13,070 nucleotides of DNA from the NCBI GenBank assembly GCA_024278345.1, contig JAJRTK010000190.1, forward strand, positions 1-13,070. The letters run 5' to 3'. Shown here in pieces: positions 3,563-13,070 of the stretch; the stretch's first letter is position 1; each line of letters starts with the position of its first letter. The position numbers and the translations under genes were made by a program. Source of the DNA: a bacterium (GTDB taxonomy: Bacteria > CSSED10-310 > JAJRTK01). Below the pieces are notes generated by a model. That model made no database searches. It was not told the DNA's origin and saw nothing but the letters and a program-made list of their open reading frames with translations.

Positions 3563-3604
3563 AGGCGACTGGCGGCGGACGGACTGCCGCCGACGGGAGC
3601 GGAA
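3563..3604 (-). repeat. REP-like 42-bp palindromic repeat, copy 1
   Basis: Read on the minus strand this matches 5382-5423 at 40 of 42 positions. The core is a G/C-rich hairpin with loop CAGTCCGT and a 3' arm CCGCCGCC. One of the two differences (T for G in the 5' arm) breaks one pair of the 8-bp stem. The similarity ends sharply on both sides. It lies about 100 bp upstream of the secreted protein's start, in its 5' leader or promoter zone. Confidence 0.8.
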
Positions 3605-4066
3605 ATCAACCATGAAAAGGTGCTGACATTGTACAGGATGGCATCCCTGAAAAGGAAGGAGACCGCGCGACATTTCCTCAGCTCGCGCGATCATTGGATT
3701 CCGTAGGGTTCGATCCCGTTCTCATGGGACTCCCCACCGCCGGATGAAAAACTTTCCGACAATCCCTGAAAGCCCGATGAAATCGAAGTTGAACCGGAGT
3801 TCTGGCAAAAGTATGCACAAGCTGGGATTTCAAGGTCAGGTGAGCCTGGCCTTCGTCGTCACAGGCTCCCAGAGCAGTTCGCCAGATTATACGAAAGTTA
3901 GACCCTGAAACTCGTTTTTGGTTTAGTGCTTCAGGGAAATCGTGCAAAATTTTTCGTCCTCACTTGAGGCAGTGCGCCAGATCGCTTACCCTTTGGGCCA
4001 GGTCACACTTTTTCATGCACCCCCGCCTTCGGTGGGCACACAAACAGAAAACCAGAGATTCTTCCC

Positions 4067-5368: not shown

Positions 5369-5381
5369 CTCTGGGGTTGCG

Positions 5382-5423
5382 TTCCGCTCCCGGCGGCGGC
5401 AGTCCGTCCGCCGCCACTCGCCT
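5382..5423 (+). repeat. REP-like 42-bp palindromic repeat, copy 2
   Basis: Contains GGCGGCGG-CAGTCCGT-CCGCCGCC, a perfect 8-bp stem with an 8-nt loop. It matches copy 1 at 3563-3604 in inverted orientation with two mismatches. It lies 13 nt past the ATP-grasp stop codon, where such a hairpin could protect the 3' end or reduce readthrough into the downstream operon. No U-run follows, so it is not a classical terminator. Confidence 0.8.
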
Positions 5424-5514: not shown

Positions 5515-7716
5515 ATGAAGAGCCATCCCGCGAGGAAGTTTCCGAAGAATCCGCTTCGAGACCCCGGCCACTGCTGGAAGAGGGGGCATCGGGCACCCGA
5601 TAAAACCGCGAAGCGTACAAAGATGTGGGTCCAGGAAGCTGGCTCCCTGGCGTGGGTCTGGGAGCGGCGCTCCCAGCGGAGGTTCGGAGGCCGCCTCCGC
5701 CGGGTGCCAGGGCTGGAAGCCCTGGGGCTGGGCCCGAATCCACTGGGTGGCCGTGTCCGAGTGACAGCGAGAGTTGCCGAAGGCACCACTGAGCACCAGC
5801 CCCGTGGATACCAGTGGAAGGGAAGGAGAGGAGCTTGGTTCTTGCCCCTCCTGGTTGCCTTGTTGTCCGCGTGCGGAGGTGGAGGCGGAGAGGATGAGCT
5901 TCCCGCTGGCGTTTTCTCCACCAAGATTACCGATGATCGGCCCTCCGGCGGGAACTGCACGGACCCCACCCAACTCCCCAATCCCACGGCTGACCTCAAC
6001 AACCAGCCTCAAGCGGAAGTTTGGATCGACGTGTCGGAGGATGGCCGTTTGGCGGCGTGCGCCAAGGATTACCGCTACAGCCCCATCGATAACACCCTCT
6101 ACAATAACCGGGTTTGGAATGGGCTCTATCTTTCTGGCGATGAGGGACGGACCTGGCGGAACCTGAACTTCCAGGATTCCAACCCGAACATGGGAATAAC
6201 GGGCATCACGGACGGCGCTTACGGGCTTCCCATGGGAGTCGAGGTGCGCTTGGCTCTGGAGACCGATCCGGTGGTGGCCTTCGACCGGGACGGGAACCTT
6301 TATACTGGTGCTCTGGCCTATTCCCCGACCTTCAAGGATCCAAGCTCCATTGTTGCCTCCCGGGTGGATGGAGCCGGGCTTCCGGTTCCAGGAACGACCC
6401 ATTTCCTGGGCCTCGAAGAGGATATTCAGCTTTTCAACGACAAAAACTGGCTCACCGTGGCCAGGGACGCTCCCGTCGGTGAGACTGTCGTTGTCCACAG
6501 TTGGCGGCTCTTTTCTTTCCTGGAGGACCCGCCTGCCAGGGAGGGCGGGTACATCGCCGTTTCGGCTGACGGCGGAGCATCCTTTGGGGCGCCCATTCGG
6601 CTGCCCATCGAAAAGAAACGCATCGTCAACAATTCCCAGTTCTACCAGCCTATCCTGGGACCGGATCCCGTCACCGGAAGCCGGACGCTCTACGTCATCT
6701 TCCGCACCATCGCCGACTCCGATTTTTCCATGGCGATGCACGTCATAAAGTCCGATATCGGCTCCCTTCCCGCCGGCGATACGGCGGCCCTCCACGGATA
6801 TTTGGCCGATCCGGAGCACTGGACCTGGTTGCCAAGGCGCCTCACGGGAATGACCAGCTATGGATCTGGCGGCTGGCAAGGCAGTTTCCGGTTCAGCTCC
6901 TTCTTCATCCCCACGATTGATAGGCAGAGCGGAAGCCTCTACGTGACAGGTGCCGTCTTTGATGCGGCGAGCCAAGGGTCTCAAGTTGTGGTCAGCCGTT
7001 CCGACGATGGAGGAGAGACTTGGACCACTCCGAAGCCCGTCGATTATCCTGGCTTTGGGCACCAGATGATGCCCGCCGCCGCATTTCACGGCGGAATCCT
7101 CTCCGTGGTGTGGTACGATTCCAGAAATGAAGGAAATTTCCGCCCTTTTGCTCCCATTGGCGGGATTGATGTCTACTACGCCGAAATGGATAGCGAGCTG
7201 AGGTTACGGCGGGTTCTCCGCCTGACTCCCGGGACGCAGGATGCCACCCACCGCGTTTTCACGCGGCCCCAGGGGTTCGATCGCGGCAGAAAAAGGCGCG
7301 GTTTGGATCGCCTCCAGCCCCACGACTTTATGGTCTCCCTTCCCAAGCTGTTGGGGTTGTCCCTGCCTGCGGGAACCCAGTTGATGGATGCTGGCGGCTT
7401 TTTCTTCCCGTTGTCTTCGGGGGCCATGGAGCGCGGCAACGGGCGTTTGGGCGGGCCCGGACAGAGCCTGGAGAGGCGCACGGCGGAGAGACGCGGTCAG
7501 GTCGGTCTCCCCGCGGATCGGTCGGGTTTTCCTGGCGCGGCTTGCGATCCTTATGGGTTTATCGGCGATTATATCGGCCTGGCCGCGGATGGCAAGGCGG
7601 CCTACGCTGCCTGGGCCGACCTCCGGGATCTCGATACCGGCCGCGATGTCTGCTCGGGCCACGACTGCCAGGGTGGCCGGAACCAGAACGTCTATTTCGC
7701 CCGCATCGACAAATAG
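5515..7716 (+). CDS. Lipoprotein with Asp-box (BNR/sialidase-type) beta-propeller
   Basis: 733 residues from ATG 5515, which has AAGGAG 8 nt upstream. The lipoprotein signal WKGRRGAWFLPLLVALLSAC ends in a perfect lipobox LSAC at Cys120, too far in for a normal signal peptide. A GTG at 5761 would put that Cys at residue 38, followed by a GGGGG linker, and may be the true start. The 82 residues in dispute are Arg-rich and partly encoded by a hairpin repeat. The mature part has three Asp boxes typical of sialidase-fold propellers: SGDEGRTW (207-214), SADGGASF (350-357) and SDDGGETW (496-503). The C-terminal part contains YGFIGDYIGLAADG and WADLRDL. Residues about 582-675 form an Arg/Gly/Pro-rich insert between blades. 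Asp-box propellers bind or hydrolyse glycans or mediate protein contacts; no catalytic set is assigned here. First gene of the apparent operon with the kinase (11-nt gap). Envelope location is expected. Confidence 0.8.
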   Translation: MKSHPARKFPKNPLRDPGHCWKRGHRAPDKTAKRTKMWVQEAGSLAWVWERRSQRRFGGRLRRVPGLEALGLGPNPLGGRVRVTARVAEGTTEHQPRGYQWKGRRGAWFLPLLVALLSACGGGGGEDELPAGVFSTKITDDRPSGGNCTDPTQLPNPTADLNNQPQAEVWIDVSEDGRLAACAKDYRYSPIDNTLYNNRVWNGLYLSGDEGRTWRNLNFQDSNPNMGITGITDGAYGLPMGVEVRLALETDPVVAFDRDGNLYTGALAYSPTFKDPSSIVASRVDGAGLPVPGTTHFLGLEEDIQLFNDKNWLTVARDAPVGETVVVHSWRLFSFLEDPPAREGGYIAVSADGGASFGAPIRLPIEKKRIVNNSQFYQPILGPDPVTGSRTLYVIFRTIADSDFSMAMHVIKSDIGSLPAGDTAALHGYLADPEHWTWLPRRLTGMTSYGSGGWQGSFRFSSFFIPTIDRQSGSLYVTGAVFDAASQGSQVVVSRSDDGGETWTTPKPVDYPGFGHQMMPAAAFHGGILSVVWYDSRNEGNFRPFAPIGGIDVYYAEMDSELRLRRVLRLTPGTQDATHRVFTRPQGFDRGRKRRGLDRLQPHDFMVSLPKLLGLSLPAGTQLMDAGGFFFPLSSGAMERGNGRLGGPGQSLERRTAERRGQVGLPADRSGFPGAACDPYGFIGDYIGLAADGKAAYAAWADLRDLDTGRDVCSGHDCQGGRNQNVYFARIDK
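5609..5725 (+). repeat. Hairpin-rich dispersed element, copy A
   Basis: It starts with a 21-bp leader containing AGCGTACAAA and GTGGG, matching copy B at 12661 in 18 of 21 positions. It continues with GCTCCCTGG (also in copy B) and three hairpins: CTGGGAGC-GGC-GCTCCCAG (5658-5676), CGGAGG-CCG-CCTCCG (5685-5699) and CCAGGGCT-GGA-AGCCCTGG (5707-5725). Total length is 117 bp against 120 bp in copy B. It lies inside the open frame upstream of the lipobox, suggesting it was inserted near the 5' end of the lipoprotein gene or forms its leader. Confidence 0.7.
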
Positions 7717-7720
7717 GGGA
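7715..7720 (+). promoter_or_regulatory. Shine-Dalgarno AGGGGA for the kinase GTG start
   Basis: AGGGGA overlaps the lipoprotein stop codon (7714-7716) and is followed by 7 nt and GTG at 7728. This supports a GTG start and coupling of kinase translation to the upstream gene. The open frame extends back to 7542 inside the lipoprotein gene, but that extension is not needed. Confidence 0.6.
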
Positions 7721-7727
7721 ACCCCGG

Positions 7728-10700
7728 GTGCAAGATGTGCCGGACATTTTTTCTCCCGAAGATCGACCTGGAGAGGGATCTTCCGAGGGCGCCGAGGGAG
7801 GTCTCTTGCCTGACTCCCCCTTGCCCGACCTTGTGGAGCCGGCGTCCAGGGAGCCCAGGCTTGTGACAAAGGGACGGCTTTTGGCGGCGACGGTCAAAAT
7901 CCGTCGTGAGAGCCGCAATTCCAGCGTCGCCGGAGAAGAGGACGCCACGGAGCTGGATGAGTCAGCTTCACCGGAGGAGATGCCGTGGGTAGCTCAGACG
8001 AACGAAGAGACTGCCTCAGAGCTGACGGAGTTTTTGCCTGCCGGTTGGGACGAACCGATTCCGGCCTTCGCGAAGAACGAGATCGTCGCCGGGCGATACC
8101 GCGTGGAGAAGTTTCTGGCTCGGGGCGGCATGGGCGAAGTCTATCGGGTAGAAGACCTTTCACTGGGCGGAAGCGTCGCCCTCAAGATGATTCGGCCAGA
8201 CCGAGCCGCCAAGGCCCGAATCGAGGAGCGGTTCAAAAGAGAGATCCAGCTTGCTCGCCGAGTTGTCAGCCCCTATGTTTGCAGAATCTTCGATTTGGGC
8301 GTGCATGCGCCCGGACTTCCTGAATCCGGGGCGAGCCTCAGCCGCGTGCTCTTTTTGACCATGGAGCTTCTTGAAGGCGAGACGCTAGCTCAAAGGTTGA
8401 AGCGGGCCGGACCTTGGCCGGTTGCCGAGGCTCTTCCCATCATCCGCCAAATGGCCATGGCCCTGGATGCTGCTCACCGCGAAGGAATCGTGCATCGGGA
8501 CTTCAAGGCCGCCAACGTGATGCTCGTTCCCGGGCCGGAAGGTGAGCGCGCCGTCGTCACCGATTTTGGGCTGGCCTGTGTCATCGGGCAAGATTCGGAC
8601 GAACATGGCCAGGGCCTCACGGTCACCGGGCAGCTTGTGGGCACGCCAGCCTACATGGCGCCCGAGCAGGTGCGTGGTGGGGAAATCGGCCTGGCAGCGG
8701 ATATTTATGCTCTTGGAGTCGTGGCCTACGAGATGGTGACGGGATCGCGGCCTTTTGCCGGCGGGGGGGCCATCATGAGCGCCGTCCAGCGCCTGGTTGC
8801 GAAACCGTGTCCTCCGCGATCGGTCCGACCGGAGCTTCCCGCCCGTTGGGATCGGGTGCTTCTGCGCTGTTTGGAGCGGGAACCCGAGGGCCGTTTCCGA
8901 TCCGCCCTGGAAGTTATCGATGCCCTGGAAGGAAAAATTGTCAAGTGGAGCCCGAAACGTCGGCGCCGGTGGAGGCGACTGGCTGCCGCTCTCATGGCCA
9001 CGGTGGTCGTGGGGACCGGGAGCTTCCGGATTCTGCAATCTGGGTTCTTGCTGGAGTTGTACGATTGGTCTCGCGCTGACCGGAGCATTCTTGTGGCAAA
9101 GGTGCCACGCCAGTCGTTTGCGGTTTTGAGATTCCAGAATCTGTCGAGCCGGGAGACCGACGGCTGGCTTTCGACGGCTCTTGGGGAAACATTGGGAGCC
9201 GAACTGGACAGCGCCAGGGGTTACCGGAGGATTTCTGGGGAAAGGGTGGCTCGAACCTGGCGTGAGCTGCGCCTGCCACTGGGCGCGAGCCTCAGCCTGG
9301 AGCAGATGAGGAGGCTTGGAAGTAACCTTGATGCCGATCTGGTCCTAGACGGGTTTTTCGTTGTCGTTGGAAACCCTCGGGCTCCCGAGAGCGACGAGGA
9401 GGAGCCTGTCCGGCAGATTCGATTGGATGCCCGGTTGGTGGATATCAAGACCGGGAACACCGTGGCCTCGGTGAATCGCGCTGGATCCGAGAGCGACCTG
9501 TTCCAGTTGGTGGTGAGTGCCGGTTCAGACTTCCGTCAGAGGCTTGGAGTCAACCGAGCCGTGGAGGCTGTCCAGGGCGGAGCGCGAGCGGCGATGCCCC
9601 TGGATCTGGCGGCGGTCCGTCTCTACGCACAGGGGCTCCAGAGGCTGAGGCGTTTGGAGCCGCAAGAAGCCGTGGTGCTACTGGAGCGGGCGGCCGAAAT
9701 AGAGCCGGGCTTTCCTCTCATCCACTCCGCTCAGGCTGAGGCTTGGCGTCAGCTCGGGTTTTCAGAGCGTGAAACGGAAGCGGCGAAAAAGGCCTTTGAG
9801 TTGGCAAAGGATCTTCCCCGTGAGGAAGAGCTCCGGATCGAAGGACGTTATCGTCGAGCCTCCGGCGAGCTGGTGGAGGCCGCGGAAGTTTATCGCACCC
9901 TGTTCGGCTTCTTTCCCGATGAACTTGAATATGGCGTGAGCCTCGGTGAGATACAGCTTGACCAGGGCGCCGTGGAAGAGGCCGAGGCAACCCTGAAGGC
10001 GTTGCTGCGTTTGCCGGCTCCCGCCAGGGAAGATCCCGCCATCGACCTTCTGGAGGCCTCCATCGGGGAAGCCAGGGGCGATTTCAGAATGGCCCGCCGA
10101 GCGGCCGTTCGGGCGGCGGGCCGGGCGGAAGCGAAAGGAGCCGCGCTCCTGGTTGCCCGGGCCAAAATCGTGGAGGCTTGGGCCCAAGCCTTTTTGAATA
10201 ACCCAGAACGGGCTCTGGATGCCCTGGAAAGTGCTGAAAAAATCTCCCGGTCGTTGGAGGATCGTTCCGGAGTTGCCACGGCTTGGAATGCGGCGTCGGT
10301 CATCCTCTCCATGCGCGGCCGGCACGGCCTGGCTGCCTCCAAATCGAAGGAAGCGGCAAAGATATTCCTTGAGATCGGCAACCAGGCCAACGCTATCGAA
10401 TGTCTGGAGAACGCCGCCTTCGATCTCCTGCAAATGGGGAATATCCACGCTGCCGCGGCAGTCATCCAACGATTGGAGAACTTCCAGTTAGAGCCCAACG
10501 ACCAGAGGAATCGAGCCCACATCCAATACCTTCGGGCCTGGCTCGAAACAGAGCGGGGCCGGCCTCGCAAGGCCTTGGCTCTCCTGGCGGAGGTCGAAGA
10601 AGTTTGGATGAAGACCGGAGACAAGCGAAAGCTCGCGGCGCTGCGGCGGAGAATGGGAGATGCCTGGTTGATCCAAGGGAATCTTGCCCTGGCTCGCTCT

Positions 10701-11294
10701 TTTTACGAGGAAGCGCTACAGATTGCCAAGGATCTGAAACTCGATTGGTATATTGCTCAGCACAAGCAGGTGCTCGCGGTTCTTCGCTTTGAAGAAAACC
10801 AATTTGAGAGTTCCCAAGCTCTTGCCGAGACGACTCTGGAACCCTTCCGCAAAGTGGGTGCCGCGGAGCGCGAAGCCGCCATGGCCGCCGTGGCGGCCAG
10901 GTGTAGGCTCCGCCGTGGGGATCCTGCCGGTGCGAGGGACTTGCTTCAGCGTGCCCTTGCGCTTCTGCACCAGATCGACAATGCTTTCGCCGCCGTTGCG
11001 ATCTCCATCGCTGCAGTGGAGATCGAGGGAGCGACACCGGAGAACCTTCAACGCCTCCAAGATACCATTGAAGCAGCCAAGGAGCTTGGAGCGGCTCGGG
11101 CCCTATTCCGGGGCCGCGTCGCCCTGGAATTTGCCAGAGTCGCCCAACCAGGGGAAGGATCTCTTGCGCTCCGCCTGGAGCAGGTGGCCCAAGAAGCCAG
11201 GAAGAGCGGATTCGAGGGCATCGCCAGAAAGGCGGCGGAAATGGCTGGCAACAATGGGCTTCAGACTCTTATGGGATCGCCGGAGGAAATGTGA
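7728..11294 (+). CDS. Membrane Ser/Thr protein kinase (PknB-type) with FlgO/TolB-like and TPR regions
   Basis: 1188 residues from GTG 7728. Residues 1-120 are an acidic, Pro/Ser-rich, probably disordered lead. The kinase domain spans about 121-402: Gly-rich loop LARGGMGEVY (130-139), VALK Lys153, alpha-C Glu172, catalytic loop HRDFKAAN with Asp258, Lys260 and Asn263, DFG 279-281, and APE 311-313. All key catalytic residues are present, so activity is expected. It is an RD-type kinase, and its activation loop has several Thr/Ser residues. A KRRRRWRR stretch precedes a single membrane segment (418-435), placing the kinase in the cytoplasm. Residues about 458-608 (SFAVLRFQNLSSRETDGWLS start) resemble the FlgO/TolB-N-like domain common in bacterial kinases. 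From about 628 to the end are helical TPR-like repeats (for example LYAQGLQRLRRLEPQEAVVL), presumably a sensor or scaffold outside the membrane. It follows the lipoprotein by 11 nt and overlaps hflX. Confidence 0.92.
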   Translation: MQDVPDIFSPEDRPGEGSSEGAEGGLLPDSPLPDLVEPASREPRLVTKGRLLAATVKIRRESRNSSVAGEEDATELDESASPEEMPWVAQTNEETASELTEFLPAGWDEPIPAFAKNEIVAGRYRVEKFLARGGMGEVYRVEDLSLGGSVALKMIRPDRAAKARIEERFKREIQLARRVVSPYVCRIFDLGVHAPGLPESGASLSRVLFLTMELLEGETLAQRLKRAGPWPVAEALPIIRQMAMALDAAHREGIVHRDFKAANVMLVPGPEGERAVVTDFGLACVIGQDSDEHGQGLTVTGQLVGTPAYMAPEQVRGGEIGLAADIYALGVVAYEMVTGSRPFAGGGAIMSAVQRLVAKPCPPRSVRPELPARWDRVLLRCLEREPEGRFRSALEVIDALEGKIVKWSPKRRRRWRRLAAALMATVVVGTGSFRILQSGFLLELYDWSRADRSILVAKVPRQSFAVLRFQNLSSRETDGWLSTALGETLGAELDSARGYRRISGERVARTWRELRLPLGASLSLEQMRRLGSNLDADLVLDGFFVVVGNPRAPESDEEEPVRQIRLDARLVDIKTGNTVASVNRAGSESDLFQLVVSAGSDFRQRLGVNRAVEAVQGGARAAMPLDLAAVRLYAQGLQRLRRLEPQEAVVLLERAAEIEPGFPLIHSAQAEAWRQLGFSERETEAAKKAFELAKDLPREEELRIEGRYRRASGELVEAAEVYRTLFGFFPDELEYGVSLGEIQLDQGAVEEAEATLKALLRLPAPAREDPAIDLLEASIGEARGDFRMARRAAVRAAGRAEAKGAALLVARAKIVEAWAQAFLNNPERALDALESAEKISRSLEDRSGVATAWNAASVILSMRGRHGLAASKSKEAAKIFLEIGNQANAIECLENAAFDLLQMGNIHAAAAVIQRLENFQLEPNDQRNRAHIQYLRAWLETERGRPRKALALLAEVEEVWMKTGDKRKLAALRRRMGDAWLIQGNLALARSFYEEALQIAKDLKLDWYIAQHKQVLAVLRFEENQFESSQALAETTLEPFRKVGAAEREAAMAAVAARCRLRRGDPAGARDLLQRALALLHQIDNAFAAVAISIAAVEIEGATPENLQRLQDTIEAAKELGAARALFRGRVALEFARVAQPGEGSLALRLEQVAQEARKSGFEGIARKAAEMAGNNGLQTLMGSPEEM
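11282..11286 (+). promoter_or_regulatory. Shine-Dalgarno GGAGG for hflX inside the kinase gene
   Basis: GGAGG lies 7 nt before ATG 11294, within the last codons of the kinase. With the TGATG overlap it indicates translational coupling. Another AGGAGG (11344-11349) sits 4 nt before an in-frame ATG at 11354, so a form 20 residues shorter is possible. Confidence 0.65.
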
Positions 11295-12574
11295 TGACCC
11301 TCCCGGCCTTGGAGAGGACTGCCAGAGCCAAACCTTTGCGTTCAGGAGGCAAGATGAGTTCGGGAACCCGTGGCCCGGCGCCGCGAAGAAATCATGAAAA
11401 AGAGCGTGACACGACTGGCCATCAGTGGCTGGAGACCCAGAAGGTGCGGGAGAAGCTCTTCCTTTTCGGGGTCCGACGCGGGAAGCAGAGCTGGGCGGAG
11501 GTCGATGAACATCTGGCTGAGCTAGAGCGTCTGGTAGCCACCGCGGGAGGCGTCGTCGTCGGAAGTATGGTCCAAGAGCTGCGGCAACCGCGGGCAGCGA
11601 CTCTCATCGGGTCCGGAAAGGTGGAGGAATTGCGCCTGGCCCTGGAGGAGGAAGGGGCTGATGCCGTGGTGTTCGATCACGAGTTGGCGCCGGCCCAGCA
11701 AAGGAACTTGACCGACCTGCTGGGAGCCAAGGTACTGGAGAGGGCTCAGGTGATCTTGGACATCTTCGTCCGAGCAGCCAAGACCCGTGAAGCGAAGTTG
11801 CAGGTGGAGCTGGCTCAGATGGAGTATCTGCTGCCCAGATTGGCGGGACTCTGGAAACACCTGGAGCGGCAGCGGGGGGGCATTGGCGTCCGAGGCGGAC
11901 CCGGTGAAGCGCAGATCGAGCTTGATCGCCGCTTGATTCGGGACAAGATCGCAGGCCTCAAGAAGAGACTCCAAAAGGTGGGCGTCCAAAGAAAGACAAG
12001 GAGCAAGCGCCGGCAGCAGTTTTTTCGGGTGGCTCTCGTGGGCTATACCAACGCCGGAAAATCGACTCTTATGAACCGCCTCACCGGCTCTGATGTCTAC
12101 GTGGCGGATCAGCTTTTCGCCACCCTTGATTCGACCGTCAAGGCCCTTTCCAATGTTCCGGGAAAATCCACTCTCCTCATTGACACCGTGGGCTTTATCC
12201 GAAAACTGCCCCACCAACTGGTCGCCTCGTTTCACTCCACCTTGGAGGCTGTTCTTGAAGCGGATTTACTGCTGATTGTCGCCGATTCCGCGTCGGAGGC
12301 CCTCGATGTGCATCTGGATGTCGTCGCCGATGTCCTGGGCCAGATCGGCGCCGGAAGTCTGCCTCGCCGGGTAGTCCTCAACAAGCTCGATGCCATCAAG
12401 GAAGAAGAAAAGAACGGCCTGGCGATGCTCTATTCCGACGCCTTCTTCTGCTCGGCAAAGACCGGCCAGGGGATGGCGGAGCTAAGGAGCTACCTCGAAT
12501 CTGAAAGATGCCGTTGGGGTCAAGAGGTCCGCCGCCAGTGGGAGGCTCCCCCCGCCGTCCCTTCTCCGAGGTAA
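11294..12574 (+). CDS. hflX: GTPase HflX
   Basis: 426 residues, the usual HflX length. The N-terminal HflX domain (about 50-190) carries GSGKVEEL (106-113), the ERAQVILDIFVRAAKTREAK block (149-168) and QVELAQMEYLLPRL (170-183). The signature GGIGVRGGPGEAQIELDRR (195-213) precedes a basic coiled linker (214-242). The G domain follows: G1 GYTNAGKS (250-257), G2 FATLD (275-279), G3 DTVG (297-300), G4 NKLD (363-366), G5 SAKT (387-390). HflX binds the 50S subunit, hydrolyses GTP and splits stalled ribosomes, notably after heat stress or with some antibiotics; that is family knowledge. Start ATG 11294 overlaps the kinase stop as TGATG; ATG 11354 is an alternative, and the first 40 or so residues look poorly conserved. 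Co-transcription with a kinase gene is unusual, as many bacteria have hflX by hfq or alone. Confidence 0.96.
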   Translation: MTLPALERTARAKPLRSGGKMSSGTRGPAPRRNHEKERDTTGHQWLETQKVREKLFLFGVRRGKQSWAEVDEHLAELERLVATAGGVVVGSMVQELRQPRAATLIGSGKVEELRLALEEEGADAVVFDHELAPAQQRNLTDLLGAKVLERAQVILDIFVRAAKTREAKLQVELAQMEYLLPRLAGLWKHLERQRGGIGVRGGPGEAQIELDRRLIRDKIAGLKKRLQKVGVQRKTRSKRRQQFFRVALVGYTNAGKSTLMNRLTGSDVYVADQLFATLDSTVKALSNVPGKSTLLIDTVGFIRKLPHQLVASFHSTLEAVLEADLLLIVADSASEALDVHLDVVADVLGQIGAGSLPRRVVLNKLDAIKEEEKNGLAMLYSDAFFCSAKTGQGMAELRSYLESERCRWGQEVRRQWEAPPAVPSPR

Positions 12575-12660
12575 CGACCGGTATCGACTTAAACACTCAT
12601 TGGGAGAATCGAACCACCCCAAAGAATGCAAGAAAAGACGCGCAGCGTCAAAAAAAAACT

Positions 12661-12780
12661 CGCAGCGTACAAAAACGTGGGCTGGGATCCCGTTGCCCTT
12701 CGTTGCAACGGGAAGATGAGCACGCTCCCTGGTGGGTGCGGGGCGAAGCCCTGCCAGGGGACCGGGGATGGAATCCCCGG
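12661..12780 (+). repeat. Hairpin-rich dispersed element, copy B
   Basis: It has the same leader as copy A (18/21 positions), then TCCCGTTGC-CCTTCGTT-GCAACGGGA (12688-12713, 9-bp stem). A two-part stem follows: CCCTGG/CCAGGG enclosing GGGC-GAA-GCCC (12727-12759). It ends in CCGGGGAT-GGA-ATCCCCGG (12762-12780). The terminal GGA-loop hairpin is the same shape as in copy A, but its stem sequence differs with pairing kept. The copy ends 66 bp before the ATPase start. Confidence 0.7.
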
Positions 12781-12789
12781 ACGACCGGT

Positions 12790-12846: not shown

Positions 12847-13070
12847 ATGCACCGCTTCTTCAACGTCGCCGGGCCTTGCAACCCACAAATGCACTACATG
12901 CTCCCGCCGGAGCGGAGGATCCCCCGCGTCCGCACCTTCATCGAGCAACACCTCTACTTCACCGTCCACGCCCCCAGGCAGGTGGGGAAGACCACCTGTT
13001 TCCGCACCCTGGCCATCCAACTACGGGAAGAAGGCGACCACGCCGCTATTTTGGCCAGTTGCGAAACCGC
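12847..13070 (+). CDS. AAA-like P-loop ATPase, N-terminal part (runs off window)
   Basis: Only the first 74 codons are present. The start ATG has a near-perfect Shine-Dalgarno AAGGGAGG 6 nt upstream. The sequence begins MHRFFNVAGPCNPQMHYMLP, followed by a Walker A motif APRQVGKTT (residues 42-50, Lys48 and Thr49). Walker A and the lead FNxAGPCxPxxHYMLPP, recalled from a common bacterial family of AAA-like/archaeal-type ATPases, suggest an ATPase of the kind often found in mobile or defence-adjacent loci and in multi-copy families. Walker B and any C-terminal effector domain lie outside the window, so no function is assigned. Confidence 0.85.
   Translation, partial: MHRFFNVAGPCNPQMHYMLPPERRIPRVRTFIEQHLYFTVHAPRQVGKTTCFRTLAIQLREEGDHAAILASCET

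Follow-up and report, generated by a model that had tools for sequence, protein, structure and literature searches.

Hairpin-rich repeats of a bacterial genome read as the interiors of miniature transposons, one family of which probably derives from an ISL3 element

Introduction

Two hairpin-rich stretches of 117 and 120 bp lie in the window, by which we mean the whole 13,070-nucleotide piece of DNA analysed here, contig C113 of a fragmented 6.06-Mb genome assembly in 550 contigs. An earlier note, made from the sequence, had suggested that the two could be copies of one structured repeat or RNA family spread through the genome, and had read changes on both arms of their stems as a sign of selection on structure. 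The locus raises the question of what such repeats are: an RNA family in its own right, or part of something larger. Our answer, of which we are fairly confident, is that both copies are hairpin cassettes of non-autonomous MITEs that multiplied in this genome, family A among them having probably come from an ISL3 insertion sequence.

Results

The description of the two copies was accurate. Their leaders, CGAAGCGTACAAAGATGTGGG (5609-5629, + strand, among the exact genomic matches to the leader pattern counted below) and CGCAGCGTACAAAAACGTGGG (12661-12681, + strand, located by leader pattern search and BLAST), are identical at 18 of 21 positions, the block GCTCCCTGG is present in both, and both have a GGA-loop end hairpin exactly as described. 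The modules that follow the leader differ between the copies. Those of copy 1 are H1, CTGGGAGC..GCTCCCAG, CGGAGG.. and CCAGGGCT; on the + strand, the hairpin CCAGGAAGC-TG-GCTCCCTGG, with one mismatch, lies at 5631-5650 (most family B copies have CCAGGGAGC), the family B module CTGGGAGC-GGC-GCTCCCAG at 5658-5676, and the end hairpin CCAGGGCT-GGA-AGCCCTGG, read directly from the sequence, at 5707-5725. Copy 2 has, likewise on the + strand, CCCGTTGC-CCTTCGTT-GCAACGGG (12689-12712), H2 with the sequence GCGGGGC-GAA-GCCCTGC (12738-12754) and H3, CCGGGGAT-GGA-ATCCCCGG (12762-12780), within a covariance model match at 12711-12782 that scored 97.2 bits. The two GGA-loop stems that had been compared are thus non-homologous modules belonging to two element families, so that the difference between copy 1 and copy 2 is no evidence of compensatory change in one stem.

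The proposed dispersal through the genome, on the other hand, was borne out, the search for further copies having found many rather than none. Exact matches to the leader pattern GTACAAANAYGTGGG number 97 in the genome, as against 0 for a reversed-pattern control. BLAST with copy 2 gave at least 43 matches of 87-100% identity with 40 of 378 candidates scored, and relatives at no fewer than 40 places; the covariance model R1 gave at least 42 matches, 42 candidates having been scored. Several copies stop at contig ends, so the true copy number is probably higher. A weak test for intergenic insertion preference showed no difference from random sites. Among 136 cassette leaders in the fetched loci, 78 were preceded by an end of family A, 15 by a family B end and seven by a C end, the rest having no end assigned or lying too near a contig end. 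One hairpin cassette is therefore common to elements with three kinds of ends.

Family A elements are bounded by a 22-bp terminal inverted repeat, GGGTATCCACGCAAGGCGGGAC, found in inverted pairs, which has 378 matches in the genome at no more than one mismatch (control, 0). The paired elements are mostly 168-310 bp long and non-coding. Target duplications were sought at 56 element pairs shorter than 450 bp with readable flanks, and 20 of these had an exact duplication of 8 bp (n = 15) or 9 bp (n = 5); the other lengths seen were 4 bp and 6 bp (one each), with none of 5, 7 or 10 bp. When right flanks were shuffled, exact 8-mers numbered 0.31 on average, with a maximum of 4. Exact duplications were absent from 36 of 57 end pairs under 450 bp, partly because nested pairs were included, some family A elements being inserted in one another (loci L012 and L084). 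Target duplications of a fixed 8-9 bp are the mark of a DDE transposon. Being short, non-coding and dispersed, with terminal inverted repeats and target duplications of fixed length, the family A elements are MITEs.

At its start the window holds a further family A right end, truncated by the contig boundary (1-158, - strand), whose terminal repeat GTCCCGCTTTGCGTGGATACCC lies at 137-158. The stretch at 1-83 is a 23-bp tandem repeat, CGCAAACGTGACCCTTCGAGTCA, present in 3.6 copies before the contig start breaks it off; the number differs among elements, with about four in L061. Two further inverted repeats were seen in the window. A long palindrome, CAGGGTCACGGCATGCCGTGACCCTG, stands at 205-240, directly behind the end of a large minus-strand gene, and a near-identical palindrome takes the place of H1 in element L146. 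A 49-nt inverted repeat with 92% complementarity (3563-3611 and 5375-5423, 1763 bp apart) encloses a gene for a 433-aa product.

The origin of family A is suggested by contig C5, which carries an ISL3-family transposase gene (PF01610, E 9.9e-23) at positions 9-803, cut by the contig start. Its stop codon is followed by GAAGAGCCAAAAATGTGGGTCCAGCAACTG and, about 250 bp further on, by GGGAGCTGGCTCCCTGG, hairpins H2 and H3 and a family A-type right end. The sequence ATGTGGGTCCAGCAACTGTCTTGAATGTCAAG, which also follows the transposase stop codon, recurs in L145 and L122, where a family A left end precedes it. BLAST with the C5 3' region gave about 75-150 alignments over the hairpins and right end, a figure in which overlapping loci are counted repeatedly. 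Given this succession of transposase gene, leader, the same hairpins and family A right end, the best reading of family A is as ISL3 derivatives that have lost the transposase, most simply as the C5 insertion sequence minus its transposase gene. The idea of an RNA family of its own is not supported, the family A cassette sitting inside DNA transposons and also standing as noncoding 3' sequence in an ISL3 insertion sequence.

The left end of the autonomous element was not found in the assembly, C5 starting inside the gene, and with that end missing the derivation of family A is one that we infer. The two ISL3 ends could not be matched on one molecule; the part seen to be common with family A is the right end and 3' region. 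When the absent left half was sought through the zinc ribbon of ISL3 (PF14690), the sole match was a weak one (E 0.9) to a different gene. A single ISL3 gene was seen nearly whole, and it is interrupted by a family B MITE (L154, 337-545) flanked by the 8-bp duplication GTTCAAGC; the transposase frame is continuous once the insert is removed by eye, and the protein so joined served as query in searches for relatives. An unrelated ISL3 element at L169, in another genome, has ends starting with GG and an 8-bp duplication. Other candidate mobilisers were set aside. The AAA-ATPase family PF09820, suggested by a partial ORF at 12847, had no match in the genome, and the ORF itself had no Pfam match; the IS256/Mutator transposase (PF00872) had none in the genome; and DDE_Tnp_1 (PF01609) was represented by one fragment, at C373, unlinked to these ends.

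Family B has 17 matches in the fetched loci, and its ends read GGCCTCGGTCATGGTACCGGCCACC. Two of its elements were read for target duplications and both have one of 8 bp, namely the insert in the C5 transposase gene and a copy at L134 (AACTCAAC). In the copies at L050, L060 and L134 the end hairpin is CCAGGGCC-GGA-GGCCCTGG, changed on both sides relative to copy 1; as in family A, a T-A pair is exchanged for C-G in these three copies. The third kind of end, TTAACACTCATGGGAGAATCGAACCACCCC, precedes copy 2 and six other cassettes. By eye, two C junctions look like TA-site insertions, which we offer as a lead and not as a result. Type C elements (L079, L083, L028, L013, L012) start with TTAACACTCATGG..AATCGAACCACCCC and end with GCGTGTACTTTCACGGTAA, are often in tandem, and occur with and without the hairpin cassette. 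A fourth repeated end, GGGACCTATCAAATC...GATAGGTCCC, was seen in L045, L099, L145, L087 and L122 and probably belongs to another IS or MITE family.

The surroundings of the two window copies fit this classification. Copy 1 is followed by a probable, degenerate family B right end (GGTGGCCGTGTCCGAGTGACAGCGAGAGTTGCCGAAGGCACCACTGAGCACCAGCCCC; 5726-5803, + strand) that resembles by eye the right part of L036, and copy 1 is a degenerate family B member with worn ends. Upstream of copy 2 is a left end of the C type (TTAAACACTCATTGGGAGAATCGAACCACCCC; 12589-12620, + strand), the third kind, and a leader piece, CGCAGCGT, is duplicated with A-tracts at a period of 20 (12629-12675, + strand); the right end of copy 2 is not recognisable. 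No paired ends with a duplication were found around 5609 or 12661, only degenerate or single ends. Both copies are old, with worn or truncated ends.

Selection on structure was examined in 64 distinct family A copies, in a gap-free alignment with three stems and 18 pairs. Paired cells made up 93.1%, compared with 90.5 in shuffled alignments. Cells with changes on both sides numbered 27 against 9.8 in shuffles, none of 500 reaching 27, and structures slid along the alignment gave 0 to 15; the number of pairs with such changes, 3, equalled the shuffled mean (2.9). Nearly all of the signal comes from one H3 pair, 59/63, which is C-G in 40 of the 64 copies and T-A in 19. Six of the 18 pairs are invariant; the H1 loop varies far more than the H1 stem, and the H2 and H3 stems vary little. 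On the transposase sense strand, a rough parsimony count gave 26 G-U and 9 A-C events (p 0.003), counts that recombination between copies inflates; 14 of the 26 G-U events fall in one column, without which the ratio is 12 to 9. The claim of covarying, selected stems thus survives for one strongly covarying pair and few others, many pairs never varying, and its support is weak to moderate. RNA-level selection on the hairpins is possible; with most stem positions hardly varying, a single covarying pair does not establish an RNA-level function.

Outside this genome the elements were hardly to be seen. Across the genomes of 60 relatives the sole family A match was a weak one of 26 nt at the DNA level (G030, E 7.8e-4), which we took as chance; model R1 had no match in 116 relatives, seven of them of the same phylum; and the exact leader-plus-H1 pattern was absent from 84,980 other GTDB genomes. 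The ISL3 protein had no close relative in 84,980 GTDB genomes, while distant ISL3 relatives are common. As far as the data searched show, the elements are particular to this lineage.

Discussion

The account that we favour runs as follows. Loss of the transposase gene from the ISL3 element would have given rise to family A, which the DDE transposase of that element would move in trans; a complete ISL3 element would then bear GGGTATCCAC-type ends on both sides. Family B has other ends and, given 8-bp duplications in the two cases examined, probably a similar mobiliser, and the C ends, as in copy 2, seem to belong to a third system, one with TA as its insertion site. Nested insertion and recombination probably carried the cassette from one family to another. 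The hairpins of the cassette would most likely have started out in one of two putative roles, as 3' untranslated sequence closing the transposase mRNA or as subterminal palindromes of the DNA.

This leaves several readings of the hairpins themselves. Perhaps, though we would not expect it, they act as DNA, as putative subterminal palindromic binding sites or cruciforms in transposition, their pairing being kept by transposition or repair. In MITEs they are enclosed by the terminal repeats, and in the ISL3 element they adjoin the right end; in element L090 (GCAAAGACGTGGGTCCAGGGAGCGAGCTCCCTGGACCCACGTCTTTG; C411 near 15805) the leader together with H1 makes up a nearly perfect inverted repeat; and in L146 one palindrome has been exchanged for another. 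The number and kind of hairpins nevertheless differ among A, B and C, and yet all have spread.

Somewhat less likely, in our judgement, is a reading of the cassette as a structured RNA that has a function and is under selection (a terminator, an mRNA stabiliser or a processing site) with the transposons as its carrier. The double changes at pair 59/63, the variable H1 loop beside conserved stems and the G-U excess speak for it, as does the persistence of hairpins in the window copies after loss of their ends. So does the folding of copy 2, with z scores against dinucleotide shuffles of -4.1 on the + strand and -3.5 on the - strand (copy 1, -1.6 and -3.4). Against it stand the collapse of the G-U excess without one column, a number of doubly changed pairs no higher than in shuffles, and the invariant pairs, since recent copying would give invariance equally; moreover, Rfam gave 0 matches at the gathering threshold and no terminator-like site was found on the + strand at copy 2. 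It is improbable, though worth stating, that the cassette is itself a functional module passed between the ISL3-like families A and B and the TA-inserting C; if so, its RNA or DNA structure might protect the element or its host, so that all the families would retain it and it would outlast the decay of the ends. Mobilisation of REP-type palindromes by a RAYT/Y1 (HUH) transposase would suit short palindromes in high copy number, many of which per genome are also found in REP/REPIN systems with RAYT, but is highly implausible for family A, whose terminal inverted repeats are long and whose target duplications measure 8-9 bp: REP elements are not known to have either such repeats or 8-bp duplications, and HUH transposases are not known to produce 8-9 bp target duplications.

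The preferred reading, non-autonomous MITEs with an ISL3 source for family A, has precedents. Microcystis aeruginosa has a 187-bp MITE with stem-loops and 8-nt target duplications that is mobilised by ISL3 (PMC11448079). Like family A, it is non-coding, under 300 bp and duplicates 8 nt at its target, with ends starting with GG; a stem-loop RNA is likewise predicted for it, and its mobiliser is inferred to be an ISL3 transposase encoded in its own genome (PMC11448079). There, both ISL3 ends were matched, the 31-33 copies are identical and the ends are 9 nt long (PMC11448079), whereas here the ends are 22 bp, the copies are diverged and number in the hundreds, the hairpins form a chain and the cassette is common to other end types. 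The BrickBuilt MITE of Porphyromonas gingivalis resembles the present elements in its stem-loops, MITE-in-MITE nesting and internal 23-nt tandem repeat, a minisatellite that the 23-bp tandem repeat of the window recalls; it differs in sequence, ends and duplications and has 19 copies, and the part of its description consulted here reports no shared hairpin cassette (PMC4596501).

MITEs, including the kind moved by ISL3, are known, and what is new is these members. A would-be RNA family is explained as the interior of miniature transposons, and the case illustrates how, once modules are swapped, differences in stems between a pair of copies can be misleading. Such elements burden this genome heavily, and several copies sit at contig ends, where the assembly seems to break. 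Most worth following is the hairpin cassette common to element families with different ends, which poses a testable puzzle about the causes of MITE spread.
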